Positions 7,301 through 31,970 of a DNA stretch of 37,918 nt are shown here, one piece after another. Within the stretch, counting starts at the first letter, position 1. Every line of letters starts with the position of its first letter. The notes beneath the pieces are model-generated. The model had not been told where the DNA came from. It saw only the letters and a list, made by a program, of their open reading frames with translations, and ran no database searches. Source of the stretch: Candidatus Moranbacteria bacterium RIFCSPLOWO2_12_FULL_48_12 (GTDB taxonomy: Bacteria; Patescibacteriota; Minisyncoccia; Moranbacterales; UBA1568); the NCBI GenBank assembly GCA_001784735.1, contig MFSB01000006.1, positions 1 to 37,918 of the forward strand, given 5' to 3'. A program made the translations under genes and the position numbers.

Positions 7301-7901
7301 TCTGGTACGCGCGGAGATTGCGGATTTCATCTTTGGTGGAACGGTACTGTTCTTTGAGTTCCTCGAGAGACTTCTCAAAAGCTTTCGTATCTTTAGCTCC
7401 CGCTTTCAATTCTTTCTGTTTGCTCTTGTATTCTTTCTCCAGCTGTTCCAGCGATTGGGCTTTCAGATCATCATTCACCTCCATGATGATATAGGAGGAA
7501 AAATAAATGACGCGTTCCAGATCCTGCGGAGAAATCCCTAGGACGAGGCCGATCTTGGATGGCACGCCGCGCAAAAACCAGATGTGCGACACCGGCGTGG
7601 CCAGCTTGATATGGCCCATCCGCTCCCGCCGTACGATGGAGCGGGTTACCTCGACGCCGCACTTGTCGCAGACGATGCCGTTGTAGCGGATGCGCTTGTA
7701 TTTGCCGCAGTAGCATTCCCAGTCCTTGGAAGGGCCGAAAATTTTCTCGCAGAACAAGCCATCCGGTTCGTAGCGCTGGGTACGGTAGTTGATGGTTTCC
7801 GGCTTGGTGATCTCGCCGTGCGACCACTCGAGAATCTGGTCCGGGCTGGCGAGCGTCAGGCGCACAGAATCAAAATCGCTCACTTTCGTAATATTTTCCA
7901 T
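4308..7901 (-). CDS. rpoC: DNA-directed RNA polymerase subunit beta'
   Basis: 1197 aa with NADFDGDQMAVHVPL catalytic motif, N-terminal zinc cysteines (CYCGKYKRIRYNGIVCDKCGVEV) and CRMCYG. Confidence 0.99.
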   Translation of the reverse strand: MENITKVSDFDSVRLTLASPDQILEWSHGEITKPETINYRTQRYEPDGLFCEKIFGPSKDWECYCGKYKRIRYNGIVCDKCGVEVTRSIVRRERMGHIKLATPVSHIWFLRGVPSKIGLVLGISPQDLERVIYFSSYIIMEVNDDLKAQSLEQLEKEYKSKQKELKAGAKDTKAFEKSLEELKEQYRSTKDEIRNLRAYQILSEVEYFNLSSRFGQIFTAGIGAEAVRKILEKIDVKKQLKVLKAELADSEATDQKKLLQRLKVYQGFETAKLSFQWMLPTSIPVIPPDLRPMVALDGGRFATSDLNDLYRRIINRNNRLKKLMAIGAPEVITRNEKRMLQEAVDALFDNSARRGQASTAASTGQRRALRSLADALKGKQGRFRQNLLGKRVDYSGRSVIVVGPKLKLHQCGLPKKMALELFKPFIINKLIEKELAHNVRTAGRMVDAEAEEAYEILDEIIEHHYVLLNRAPTLHRLSIQAFQPVLIEGKAIRLHPMVCSAFNADFDGDQMAVHVPLTDQARHESATIMLSSKNLLKPASGEPIVSATLDMVLGIYYLTHIKPEGLGQGKIFGSLDEAILAHQNGIVDVNVAVKLSYNGQLIETSVGRVLLNDILPESLRFVNEEMVKKDLKGLMSRILETLGQDEAAQFADRLKDLAFRAVSRSGISWGMDDLIVPKEKPAHMAAAEIQVREVKDQYNMGLLTNEERRNRVIEIWNETKNKITDAVRASLDKEGPVYSMIFSKARGSESVVVQMTGMKGLMSGPTGETIELPVKSSFKEGFNVLEYFISTHGARKGMADTALRTATAGYLTRRLVDVAQDIIVREEDCEDTEGVYLYREDSDAIGHSYALRVEGRTTVETLKDPDTKEVIVKKGILISKAQAKAIERKNIVKVKIRSLVTCKSRRGVCRMCYGIDLGRNALVELGASVGVVAAQAIGEPGTQLTMRTFHVGGVAGSDITQGLPRVEEIFEARVPKTEAILSEADGQVKTIIKDNAKVIKITVEDQGKKLYEYQAPANVGLRVKEGDLVSVGAILSEGHIDLRKLFTVMGQEAVHRYIIREIEEIYAAQGEGINDKHIEVIIRQMLSRVRVTDPGDTVLLPGDIVEKDQFLEANEVAIGKKGSEAVGESMVLGITKVALSTESFLSAASFMETARVLINAAVQGKEDRLRGLKENVIIGRLIPAGTGYREPGQPRAR

Positions 7902-7939
7902 AAGTTTTGATGAAGTAAAAAATTTAAGAAAGTGAGGCG

Positions 7940-11407
<3,468 letters not shown>

Positions 11408-26521: not shown

Positions 26522-26670
26522 GAGAAGCTTGCCCGCACCGCATACGCGGAGCGTTTCGGGCGGGGCTGGCGTACTACCCGCCTCGACTCGCGACGCTCAT
26601 CGACGCGAGGCCGGCCATTGCCTGCCCGCCACACTGCGTAAGCTGTAGGTGGGTACTATTTACCCGTCCG
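26522..26670 (-). pseudogene. tRNA-like 5'-half mosaic with three palindromic insertions
   Basis: Minus: CGGGTAAATAGTAC-[..GGCGGGCAGG]-CAATGGCCGG-[PE1]-TAGTACGCCAGC-[CCCGCCCG..GCGGGC]-AAGCTTCTCCC. Confidence 0.65.
26577..26610. repeat. PE1 palindrome, copy 3
   Basis: acccgcctcgactcgcgacgctcatcgacgcgagg; shares CCGCCTCGACTCGC and CGACGCGAGG with copy 4. Confidence 0.8.
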
Positions 26671-27613: not shown

Positions 27614-28633
27614 CTACACGATATCACGGAGGATATTCTCGTACTCCCCCAGCTCGAGGAGCATCATGAGCACTTTGGCCAACTGGTCGCTATCGTGCCG
27701 GATAAAAGCCCGCGTATGAGCAATGGCATCGGCCTTATCCAAACGCACCCGCTCCGCACTCAAAAGATTGGTTTCCAATACACGATACTGGCGCTTCTTG
27801 CGAGCCGTTCTCTCAAAAGGCACGAGCTCGCCTTCCTGCTTATATTTTTTCATCAACCGCTGGCTCGGCTTGCCGATATTGTTGGTAACGAAATCGACCC
27901 TTCCTCTCCCTAGATATTTTTCCGTGGCATCAATGTAGTCATCGAGCGTAAACCCCTCTGTCTGACCTTTTTTATTTACCAGATTGCAGTTGTACACGAC
28001 TTTCGCGTGAGACTTTCGGATAGCCTCTGGGATACCATCCACCAAAAGATTCGGCACGATAGCGCAATAGTGACTTCCCGGACCGATCACAATCAGATCG
28101 GCAGCCAGAATTTTTTCAATCGCTCGCGGATTGGCTTTTGCCTTGGGGAAGAGATATATCTTGGCTACTCCCTGCTTGCTGATTTCAAAATTATGATTGA
28201 TTTCACTTTCTCCCTGAAGCAGAGTCTTACTCTTCAGTTGGAGAAAAAGCTTCGTATCCGCATTGGTCACGGGGATCACTTCGCCTTTGACATTCAAAAT
28301 TTGGGCGGCTTCAGCGACGCCAAGAGAAAAATTGCCAGTAATCTTTTCCAAGGCGGAAAGAAAAAGGTTGCCGAAACTATGGCCCGATAAGCCACCATTC
28401 TCAAATCGATAATTCATAAGCTTCCGAAGCATCTCTGAAGAATCTGACAGCGCCACCAGACACTGGCGCACATCGCCCGGCGGCAAAACTCCGAGTTCGT
28501 CACGCAGAACCCCCGTCGAGCCGCCGTCATCGGCCATAGAAACGATGGCCGACAGTTCGATCGGATACTTTTTCAGCCCGGACAAAAGCATGAAACTCCC
28601 CGTCCCCCCGCCGATAGTCACTACTTTTTTCAT
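27614..28633 (-). CDS. yvcK: gluconeogenesis factor YvcK / CofD-like
   Basis: MKKVVTIGGGTGSFMLLSGLKKYPIELSAIVSMADDGGSTGVLRDELGVLPPGDVRQCLVAL. Confidence 0.96.
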   Translation of the reverse strand: MKKVVTIGGGTGSFMLLSGLKKYPIELSAIVSMADDGGSTGVLRDELGVLPPGDVRQCLVALSDSSEMLRKLMNYRFENGGLSGHSFGNLFLSALEKITGNFSLGVAEAAQILNVKGEVIPVTNADTKLFLQLKSKTLLQGESEINHNFEISKQGVAKIYLFPKAKANPRAIEKILAADLIVIGPGSHYCAIVPNLLVDGIPEAIRKSHAKVVYNCNLVNKKGQTEGFTLDDYIDATEKYLGRGRVDFVTNNIGKPSQRLMKKYKQEGELVPFERTARKKRQYRVLETNLLSAERVRLDKADAIAHTRAFIRHDSDQLAKVLMMLLELGEYENILRDIV

Positions 28634-28635
28634 AA
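28603..28635. repeat. 33-bp exact direct repeat, copy 1 (yvcK start)
   Basis: tccccccgccgatagtcactacttttttcataa, identical to 31058-31090. Confidence 0.95.
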
Positions 28636-28689
28636 GATTCAAAATTATACGATATTGAAACCATAGCATGCTCAAAGTATTCTTTCAAG

Positions 28690-28720
28690 AAAAAAGCCTA
28701 GTCCGCAATGCGTCTAGGCT
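28690..28720 (-). terminator. terminator after radical SAM gene
   Basis: Minus: AGCCTAG-ACGCATTGCGGA-CTAGGCTTTTTTC. Confidence 0.85.
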
Positions 28721-28750
28721 ACCTGTCCATCCGGTCAGGCTCGGTATTTT

Positions 28751-30823
28751 TTACAGCGTCCGAGAAAACGCGAGCAGGTCTTCGAATGAATTGAAGCTCA
28801 CTTTCTGCCCCAGCTCCTCCTTGACAATAGACGCCACCTTTGCGAGAGCCCGCTCGAGGTGTGGAACTTCTTTTTCCGGCGGCAATACTTTCGCCATCTG
28901 CTCAAGCTCTTCCCACGAGTAACGCCCGCGATTTACCCACCACGGAATAGTAGATGTCACGCCATAGGCCCAGTGCCGGCGGCATGCCTCTTCCAGAACA
29001 GTCCGCATCGCATCCACCTTCTTGTTTGAGACGACACGATACCGGAAGTCCCGATTGAGGTGTAATGGTTTAGTGTCTGGAAGCACCTCTATCCACTGGC
29101 CGTTTTTTCCTTCTGTTTCATCCCGACTGAGGCGCGTAACCCGATACCGACCGGCTTTGATAGTGAGGATATCTCTCCCGTACTTCTCGAGAAAAGCGAT
29201 CCATTTGAGCCCCCAATGTAGCGGCTCGCCCGGAAGTCCGATGAGAAGAAAGACGTGTGTCTGAATACCGGCCTTCCTCAAATTGGACAGAATAATACCG
29301 TAATTCTCGGGCTTATTCCAGGTCTTTTCCGCTTGTGCCAAAGTCTCCGGTGCTAAAGATTCGAAACCGACCATAACATCGCCACAGCCCGCTTCGGCCA
29401 GTGCATCGCATACATCCTGTTTTACTAGGGTATTGTCTGCCGTCATATAGCAGTCCCATGTCGCGGAAAGGCCTCTCTCCTTGAGTCTTTTTCCTAATGC
29501 AATTTGGCGAGAAACCGGAAACATCGCACTGACAATCTCAAAACGAGACGCGCCTATGGCCAATATGTGCTCCGCCATTCGACGTGAGCTCATTTCACGT
29601 GGCTTACCGTGAAATGTAGCGCTTCCGGCCTCGATTGCACAAAAATCGCAGCGGTCTTTCGTGAGACAATTTGACGCCGGGTAAAGAGAGGGAACAAAAT
29701 CGGGCGACCACTGACGCACGCTACCGTCAAAAACCGGCGTTGGCAAGGTTTCGAATGGAATCGGCAAGGATACAGGATTAACGATTACTCTGTTGTCGCC
29801 ACTTCTCCACACTGTCCCCGGTGCGGATGATGGTGTCAAGGTTTCAGTTAAAACCTCCAGTGCACGGAAGCCTTCTCCCCAAACTATGGCATCACAGTAG
29901 TCGAACATCTCGGCGAATTGCGGAAGCAAATAGGCACCAAGCGGCCGCGCCCAAAAGTTGCCACCCATGACCACGAGTGTATTCGGCAACGTCTCTTTTA
30001 TCATCGCAGCGAGGATGCAACCTTGAACGAATTGCCTTTCGTCAGCGATGCTGATCCCATACAAATGAGGACGGACGTTTTTCGCAAATGGAACTTCCGC
30101 GTGAGCGAAGTACGAATACCATAGATGCTCTTTGCGATTTCTTATCGCATCGAGCATTTTCTCGATACTGCCGTCATAGTAATGCGACACGTATGTGACG
30201 TTATTGCGCTCCACGACGAATTTGTCTTGCGTTATGATACCGCTTGAAACGCGCTCGAATGTCATCCGTGCATCGTAAAGTGCCTTGATATCGCTTTTCG
30301 AGTCGCGGATAGTTGCCAGCGCCTTGTCGATAGTCTCTCCGCCGTGCTCGCGTAAAACGTATTTTAATCCGGCGATGTGCCCATAGTGCTGGGTCACTTG
30401 GTGACCACGCTCTTGGAGATACGCCGCGAGCATCGAGATGCCGGCAGGCAAATGCCATACCGACGATACCGGCGGATAGTTGAGTATCACTCGACGTTTA
30501 GGAGTTGCTATGAGAGTGACGAGCGCAAACTCGCTTTTCACAACGTCATCGTTGAAAGTGATCGTGATGACCGGTTTAGGCGTAGTCGGTACTGTCAGCC
30601 AGCCCATCTCACTCCGATAATTAACGGTAACAGGCTCAGAAACGGTCAGACTTTTGCCTTCGGGGATGGAAACCATCCGCCCGTCAGCAAAATGCACGTA
30701 CGTTACCTCATGGCGATTCGACGTGTCACGCTGGTGAACAGTCACCGCGTACGAAACATCAATGTGGAAGAGATGTAATGCACACAGAATTGCGAAAAAA
30801 CAGAGAAGCTTGTTCGGTTTCAT
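28751..30823 (-). CDS. B12-binding-like radical SAM protein with N-terminal extension/signal-peptide-like segment
   Basis: CLTKDRCDFC (CX5CX2C), IVWGEGF and VVMGGNF B12-binding-like strand motifs, GFESLAPETLAQAEKTW and FLLIGLPGEP radical-SAM motifs; strong SD AGGAGG upstream. Confidence 0.88.
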   Translation of the reverse strand: MKPNKLLCFFAILCALHLFHIDVSYAVTVHQRDTSNRHEVTYVHFADGRMVSIPEGKSLTVSEPVTVNYRSEMGWLTVPTTPKPVITITFNDDVVKSEFALVTLIATPKRRVILNYPPVSSVWHLPAGISMLAAYLQERGHQVTQHYGHIAGLKYVLREHGGETIDKALATIRDSKSDIKALYDARMTFERVSSGIITQDKFVVERNNVTYVSHYYDGSIEKMLDAIRNRKEHLWYSYFAHAEVPFAKNVRPHLYGISIADERQFVQGCILAAMIKETLPNTLVVMGGNFWARPLGAYLLPQFAEMFDYCDAIVWGEGFRALEVLTETLTPSSAPGTVWRSGDNRVIVNPVSLPIPFETLPTPVFDGSVRQWSPDFVPSLYPASNCLTKDRCDFCAIEAGSATFHGKPREMSSRRMAEHILAIGASRFEIVSAMFPVSRQIALGKRLKERGLSATWDCYMTADNTLVKQDVCDALAEAGCGDVMVGFESLAPETLAQAEKTWNKPENYGIILSNLRKAGIQTHVFLLIGLPGEPLHWGLKWIAFLEKYGRDILTIKAGRYRVTRLSRDETEGKNGQWIEVLPDTKPLHLNRDFRYRVVSNKKVDAMRTVLEEACRRHWAYGVTSTIPWWVNRGRYSWEELEQMAKVLPPEKEVPHLERALAKVASIVKEELGQKVSFNSFEDLLAFSRTL

Positions 30824-30926
30824 GAGTCCTCCTACAAGGGAAGTTGGTGAGTGATATTGTTAAAGAGCCTTATACAAGCCTAAACTTGTCTGTCGCTCTT
30901 TGGAAAAAATCCTGATACGACTTGCA

Positions 30927-30955
30927 TTTATAACACAAGCCCGCTAAAAATACAA
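30927..30955 (-). promoter_or_regulatory. putative sigma70 promoter for radical SAM gene
   Basis: Minus: TTGTAT-17 nt-TATAAA. Confidence 0.5.
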
Positions 30956-30963
30956 TAGTTTAC

Positions 30964-30986
30964 AAAAAAGCTGGCTTCAAGCCAGT
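30964..30986 (-). terminator. terminator-like hairpin downstream of Nudix gene
   Basis: Minus: CTGGCTTGAAGCCAGCTTTTTTG. Confidence 0.8.
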
Positions 30987-31057
30987 CATATAACATTCAA
31001 AAGTTTCATAGGGTTAACCGTTTGCATCAACGGGGTGACAAATCAAACAAATGGTTT

Positions 31058-31090
31058 TCCCCCCGCCGATAGTCACTACTTTTTTCATAA
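31058..31090. repeat. 33-bp exact direct repeat, copy 2 (orphan yvcK 5' end overlapping Nudix stop)
   Basis: Minus TTATGAAAAAAGTAGTGACTATCGGCGGGGGGA, would encode MKKVVTIGGG; ATGA overlap with Nudix stop. Confidence 0.95.
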
Positions 31091-31519
31091 AAATGATTTT
31101 TTTCTAAAGTACGCCCTGATTGCTTCTTCATAACCATTTACAAAGTCATAGTGTTCCATATCTGCCTCTATAATCCAGGCATATTCTGTATGTTCATGAC
31201 TCAAAGTGACCTCGCCGGAGATATAAGAACAATCAAACCCAGCCAGAAACACCCACTCCCCATTCGGAAACTGGCGTCTGAAAACGTGGAACACTTCTCC
31301 CACGATAATTTCTATCGAGCCGCATTCTTCTCTTACTTCCCGCAAAAGAACGTCTATAAGCGGGGTTCTCTCTTCACTTTCCGTAATTCTTCCGCCGGGG
31401 ATTTCCCATTTTTTCCCACTCGGATATTTTTCAGATGCGAACTCCCTCAAGATAAGCAACTTGCCATCCTTTGCAATAAAAGCCTTGAGACCAACAAAAA
31501 AGAGCTTGTTATCTTCCAT
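31085..31519 (-). CDS. Nudix hydrolase
   Basis: GKKWEIPGGRITESEERTPLIDVLLREVREECGSI; start moved to MEDNKLFF because the longer ORF reads into tRNA-like repeats. Confidence 0.88.
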   Translation of the reverse strand: MEDNKLFFVGLKAFIAKDGKLLILREFASEKYPSGKKWEIPGGRITESEERTPLIDVLLREVREECGSIEIIVGEVFHVFRRQFPNGEWVFLAGFDCSYISGEVTLSHEHTEYAWIIEADMEHYDFVNGYEEAIRAYFRKKSFL

Positions 31520-31543
31520 AGCTTGCATGAGAGAATTATTCTG

Positions 31544-31617
31544 TCGGAGCACCCGGAATCCCCGCCTGCCGTCGGGCAGGGAACCGGAACTAAAATTTGG
31601 TCGGGGTGCTGGGAATC
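31544..31617 (-). pseudogene. two tRNA-Pro 3'-end fragments with palindromic T-loop insertion
   Basis: Minus: GATTCCCAGCACCCCGACCAAATTTTAGTTCCGGTTC-[CCTGCCCGACGGCAGGCGGG]-GATTCCGGGTGCTCCGA. Confidence 0.7.
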
Positions 31618-31715
31618 CCCTTCGGGCCTGGGCTATCCTGCGAGACAGGTTAGCCCTTCTCTTCCCAACGCAAGTGAAGCAGTTCACTTGCTTCACCCGC
31701 CTTCACTTCGTTTTG

Positions 31716-31786
31716 TCGGGGTGCTGGGAATCGAACCCAGTCAACATGCTCCCAAAGCATGCGTACTACCGGTATACGACACCCCG
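31716..31786 (-). tRNA. tRNA-Pro(TGG)
   Basis: CGGGGTGTCGTATACCGGTAGTACGCATGCTTTGGGAGCATGTTGACTGGGTTCGATTCCCAGCACCCCGA; anticodon loop TTTGGGA. Confidence 0.95.
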
Positions 31787-31817: not shown

Positions 31818-31966
31818 CTTGCGTATTTACCCGCCATAGTTCTTACGGCGGCGGGCTGCCACTATACTACTCTCCGGATTGAGATGCGACGGGGCAAGAA
31901 GCATGCGTACTATCCGCCTCGACTCGCTTCGCTTGCCGACGCGAGGCGGGCCGGTATACGACACCC
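31818..31966 (-). pseudogene. tRNA-Pro 5'-half copy and a second tRNA 5' fragment, each with a D-loop palindrome
   Basis: Minus: CGGGGTGTCGTATACCGG-[PE1]-ATAGTACGCATGCTT; then GGAGAGTAGTATAGTGGCAG-[CCCGCCGCCGTAAGAACTATGGCGGGTAAA]-TACGCAAG. Confidence 0.7.
31913..31950. repeat. PE1 palindrome, copy 4
   Basis: tccgcctcgactcgcttcgcttgccgacgcgaggcggg. Confidence 0.8.
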
Positions 31967-31970
31967 CGAT

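Follow-up and report, generated by a model that had tools for sequence, protein, structure and literature searches.

Probable capture of a foreign radical-SAM transcription unit at the tRNA-Pro–yvcK junction of a Moranbacteria genome

How does a complete transcription unit come to stand directly in front of yvcK, between two exact copies of the first bases of yvcK itself? The window, by which is meant the whole 37,918-nt stretch of DNA analysed here, is contig 6 of a draft genome of 0.99 Mb in 55 contigs. It contains two copies of the 33-mer TTATGAAAAAAGTAGTGACTATCGGCGGGGGGA on the minus strand (Table 1); shuffled sequences give an expectation of zero, and no other exact direct repeat in the window reaches 20 bp. 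Beyond the 33 bp the sequences of the two copies differ completely. The upstream copy opens a reading frame of just about 24 codons, hence it is no gene. Since the leading TT of the 33-mer may match by chance, the true duplication is 31–33 bp. A 31-nt version counted from the ATG, with up to three mismatches allowed, was found twice in this genome, once in G004, once in G001, and nowhere in the rest of the 28 family genomes. The exact duplication described in the initial annotation is therefore real at both places (33/33 bp), and so is the overlap that it reported between the Nudix stop and the copied start codon, read as ATGA (TGA at 31087-31085, ATG at 31088-31086).

Table 1. Features at and around the tRNA-Pro–yvcK junction, in positions of the window.
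Feature	Position	Strand	Remarks
yvcK (CofD/YvcK family)	27614..28633	-	339 aa, intact
33-bp repeat copy at true yvcK start	28603..28635	-	yvcK start conserved among congeners
Inserted interval between the 33-bp copies	28636..31057	-	2,422 bp, without terminal inverted repeats
TATAAT	28644..28649	-	10 nt before yvcK ATG, brought by insert
Two consecutive hairpins and T-run (terminator)	28691..28740	-	3' of radical-SAM gene
Radical-SAM gene	28751..30823	-	690 aa, PF04055, cluster motif CX5CX2C
Shine-Dalgarno AGGAGG of radical-SAM gene	30828..30833	-	sequence
Terminator-like hairpin	30971..30985	-	5' of radical-SAM promoter region
33-bp repeat copy, duplicate of yvcK start	31058..31090	-	overlaps Nudix stop as ATGA
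Nudix hydrolase gene	31085..31528	-	147 aa, not at this position in relatives
Two 3' partial tRNA-Pro-like copies	31543..31617	-	between tRNA-Pro and Nudix
tRNA-Pro(TGG)	31715..31786	-	ancestral upstream neighbour of yvcK
5' partial tRNA-Pro copy	31899..31969	-	19 + 14 nt, split in D-loop by 38-bp palindrome

What lies between the two copies? The interval 28636-31057 has a single long open reading frame, an AGGAGG Shine-Dalgarno sequence before its ATG and hairpins at its 3' end, in agreement with the original description of about 2.4 kb with one gene, its ribosome-binding site and a terminator, the last being two hairpins followed by a T-run. A simple consensus scan of the interval picked out one terminator only, at 30985-30971, upstream of the radical-SAM gene. 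The hairpin pair 3' of the gene recurs at L090, a locus of Patescibacteria REEB49, with compensatory changes in the first stem; because the pair has been kept although the two proteins are no more than 59% identical, the gene seems to have moved together with its terminator. As had been claimed, the interval contains no transposase, its sole reading frame being of another kind, and terminal inverted repeats are also absent: none rises above chance, the longest word shared between the end 60 bp being 7 bp (P ~0.22). There is no second copy of the cassette in the draft genome.

What was the order of genes before the insertion? The locus was compared at the DNA level in 14 members of the family, of which 11 are congeners and three belong to another genus. 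In all 14 the order phosphoglycerate mutase, RNase Y, HU, tRNA-Pro, yvcK is fixed, and in most of them yvcK is followed by an oxidoreductase gene and tRNA-Gly. Eleven of the 14 have a gap of 0-71 bp between tRNA-Pro and yvcK; that of the window, 3,081 bp long, contains the Nudix and radical-SAM genes. The nearest relative, G005, is collinear with the window on both outer flanks at 82-88% nucleotide identity, and this matching order on both sides argues against a chimeric contig. The radical-SAM gene is missing from all 12 congeners searched, which makes it a lineage-specific insertion, as the initial annotation had supposed; a target copy flanks the unit.

The remaining three family members also have something to say about the junction. 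In G002, G006 and G022 the gap is 540, 372 and 584 bp, and each carries one extra gene (PNPOx-like, GIY-YIG and PNPOx-like, respectively), with no duplication longer than 10 bp around any of them. Since these relatives carry additional genes of other kinds there, the tRNA-Pro–yvcK junction is a small insertion hot spot. It resembles the known tRNA-adjacent hot spots in that different genes lie 3' of the same tRNA-Pro depending on the lineage; it differs from them in that the insert in the window has no integrase gene and is joined within yvcK, not within the tRNA.

Does the Nudix gene belong to the ancestral locus? It had been proposed that a coupled Nudix–yvcK pair was the original state, and this did not hold. 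None of the 14 family members has a Nudix gene between tRNA-Pro and yvcK. A loose Nudix-box pattern, which detects the window's own Nudix, found no box upstream of yvcK at 29 further yvcK loci from the family and the order, and yvcK stands beside Nudix at none of 30 Nudix-containing loci checked, so that the uninterrupted Nudix–yvcK junction sought in relatives was met at neither set of loci. With no Nudix before yvcK in relatives, the window's Nudix is itself an extra gene, and a Nudix–yvcK state can only have existed briefly in this lineage, as an intermediate. The Nudix protein ends a few residues past a 50%-identical relative in G319, which is consistent with a junction at which the gene took the TGA of yvcK as its stop.

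The reading that we favour, at a probability of roughly 60%, is a lineage-specific gene capture without transposition, in which a foreign transcription unit was joined to the tRNA-Pro–yvcK junction by an additive, illegitimate event. The starting point, shown by the relatives, would be tRNA-Pro followed directly by yvcK. Two foreign pieces, the Nudix gene and the 2.4-kb fragment, would then have entered the junction in this lineage, and the order of events that we infer is as follows. The Nudix gene came to abut yvcK, whose ATGA would have supplied its stop. The 2.4-kb fragment, a horizontally transferred cobalamin-type radical-SAM transcription unit, would have been added by a join inside the first 33 bp of yvcK, and the upstream 33 bp would be a partial copy of the target, made when a staggered break was filled in or when recombination took place on one side only (homology-facilitated). 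After these insertions yvcK no longer adjoins tRNA-Pro. Only additive joins leave yvcK intact, and selection would therefore explain why a long duplication is what is observed.

Is there a known process of this kind? One-sided integration and partial target duplications beside integrated DNA have both been documented experimentally (PMC3240628), and natural competence has been reported in Patescibacteria (PMC11665869). Homology-facilitated illegitimate recombination during DNA uptake in Streptococcus pneumoniae, Acinetobacter baylyi and Pseudomonas stutzeri likewise adds foreign DNA beside a conserved gene, and without a transposase; in the window one end may have been anchored in homology, for which yvcK could have served. 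In contrast to the 33-bp duplication retained in the window, that process usually involves deletions and 3-10 bp of microhomology; that published cases of one-sided recombination mostly show a deletion and not a short duplication counts against the favoured capture, as do the composition and codon use of the insert, which are only mildly atypical.

Among the other explanations, the one that survives best is a recombination between two hot-spot alleles, tRNA-Pro–Nudix–yvcK and tRNA-Pro–radical SAM–yvcK, of two different strains, in which homologous exchange in yvcK and an illegitimate join 33 bp into it would have placed both inserts one behind the other. It is a specific form of the favoured capture and compatible with it, and we regard it as possible. 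The different single genes found at the junction in different relatives agree with it, as does the documentation of one-sided recombination (PMC3240628), but no genome was found with radical SAM alone before yvcK.

Could the cassette instead be a non-autonomous mobile element that was mobilised in trans, so that the 33 bp would be a genuine target-site duplication? The self-contained unit is indeed flanked by exact direct repeats over 33/33 bp, and the junction of the congeners lacks the radical-SAM gene, but it lacks the Nudix gene too. A further duplication, of 19+14 nt, surrounds a short insert at the adjoining tRNA-Pro. Long and variable target duplications of 8-514 bp are moreover on record for IS1634/IS1549 (PMC2266710), which the window resembles in having a flanking direct repeat longer than usual; the remark that 33 bp is long for a target duplication stands, and the event in the window is of a known sort. 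Unlike IS1634/IS1549, however, the cassette has neither a transposase nor terminal inverted repeats nor a second copy in the genome, and its nine relatives elsewhere are without flanking duplications above 14 bp, so that an element moved in trans is unlikely. Other candidates were tried and rejected: a transposon, for want of terminal repeats, a transposase or a second copy in the draft genome; Cas1-type (casposon) integration, as no PF01867 match occurs there; and Ku-type end joining, as Ku was not detected there.

The 5' part of tRNA-Pro (19+14 = 33 nt) occurs a second time upstream of the complete gene, with an insert of about 110 bp between; G005 has a single intact tRNA-Pro and no 5' partial copy. 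One of the two 3' partial copies on the other side is split in its T-loop by a GC-rich palindrome, and partial copies similar to these two are present upstream of tRNA-Pro in G001 and G004. Taken alone, the 19+14-nt duplication does not establish a mechanism shared with the 33-bp duplication of yvcK. We consider it improbable that the genus has a recurrent mechanism, without recognisable recombinase, that inserts DNA with target duplications of about 33 bp at the yvcK start and at the 5' part of tRNA-Pro.

A family of dispersed palindromic repeats built around CGAGTCGAGGCGG / CGAGTCTAGGCGG was also observed. It has about 20 copies in the genome, as against 0-1 for a reversed control; two are in the window (26578-26590 and 31914-31926) and 18 more elsewhere in the genome (L112-L131). 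The one near tRNA-Gly lies, in addition, within a tRNA-like 5' half. Rfam gave no credible match except tRNA.

Two further explanations are weaker still. A circular molecule with 33 bp of yvcK, integrated by a single crossover (Campbell type), would yield exact direct repeats at both ends, and partial duplications from single crossovers have been seen experimentally (PMC3240628); the circle would need 33 bp identical to the yvcK of this species even at synonymous sites, and the nearest-match relatives differ at 2-3 positions of the yvcK start, which makes it very improbable. Least credible of all is an assembly artefact in which the 33-mer joins unrelated contigs of a draft in 55 pieces: 33 bp is shorter than the k-mers commonly used in final assembly, and two false joins around a complete unit would be needed between outer flanks collinear with one relative.

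What kind of protein does the insert encode? An AlphaFold2 model (mean pLDDT 84, with a loop of low confidence at 387-405) matches the cobalamin-dependent radical-SAM enzymes OxsB, TsrM and CysS with E values of about 1e-14 to 1e-12, AprD4 being also among the structure matches, and the protein is predicted to have a cobalamin-type radical-SAM fold. NCBIfam returned weak matches to PhpK-type and RiPP C-methyltransferase radical-SAM models. The likeness to OxsB, TsrM, CysS and AprD4 thus lies in predicted fold and weak profile matches; in contrast, the scores fall far below every curated cut-off, and the window copy has an additional exported-looking N-terminal domain, a CX5CX2C motif and no DE pair. 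Residues ~1-105 form a signal-peptide-like segment and a small beta domain, and residues ~107-690 the cobalamin-type core. The CX5CX2C motif (residues 386-395) is found in the window copy alone, against CX3CX2C in 9/9 relatives, and residues 432-433 are SA where the nine others have the DE pair. The reading frame is intact; the protein may be in decay or have a changed activity.

The relatives of the gene are sporadic, being found in Uhrbacteria, Berkelbacteria, Parcubacteria, Actinomadura and others. Nine of them, in other genomes, have unrelated surroundings, and at none of the nine loci is there a flanking direct repeat above 14 bp; a search for the same cassette between long duplications elsewhere, which had been suggested as a check, accordingly came back empty. 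Four of the ten members have the N-terminal segment and beta domain: the window protein (30506-30823), L090, L091 and L097. An artefactual fusion of the N-terminal 106 aa was rejected, as the other three have the same domain; searched alone, these 106 aa gave no convincing match in 286 genomes. A viral origin was rejected, there being no radical-SAM relative among viral contigs, and a plasmid origin likewise, plasmid matches being weak and partial only. At L091 the radical-SAM relative is followed, about 0.6 kb downstream, by a gene (7770-8693) that resembles, by eye, a tyrosine recombinase.

How is yvcK expressed with and without the insert? In several relatives its ATG lies 0-2 nt after the 3' end of tRNA-Pro, and there yvcK may share the transcript of the tRNA. 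At the junctions L099, L102, L105 and L107 the start codon follows the tRNA-Pro 3' end immediately. This arrangement suggests that processing of the tRNA 3' end would leave a leaderless yvcK mRNA in several congeners. Two terminator-like structures stand between tRNA-Pro and yvcK in the window, where the end of the insert probably supplies the promoter for yvcK. The -10 element proposed there exists: a TATAAT at 28649-28644 precedes the ATG by 10 nt, but lacks a good -35. A weak TTGAAA-17-TATGGT lies farther upstream in the insert end.

The locus would thus be a clear trace of the capture of a single gene by a reduced Patescibacteria genome, with a duplication unusual in length and not in kind, and no new kind of mobile element is required. 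If a recurrent mechanism with duplications of about 33 bp did exist, it would let foreign genes enter essential junctions and leave these unbroken. The analysis also defines a small, sporadic family of predicted cobalamin-type radical-SAM proteins, of which some carry an N-terminal domain that looks exported, and shows the tRNA-Pro–yvcK junction to be a place that accepts extra genes in several lineages.
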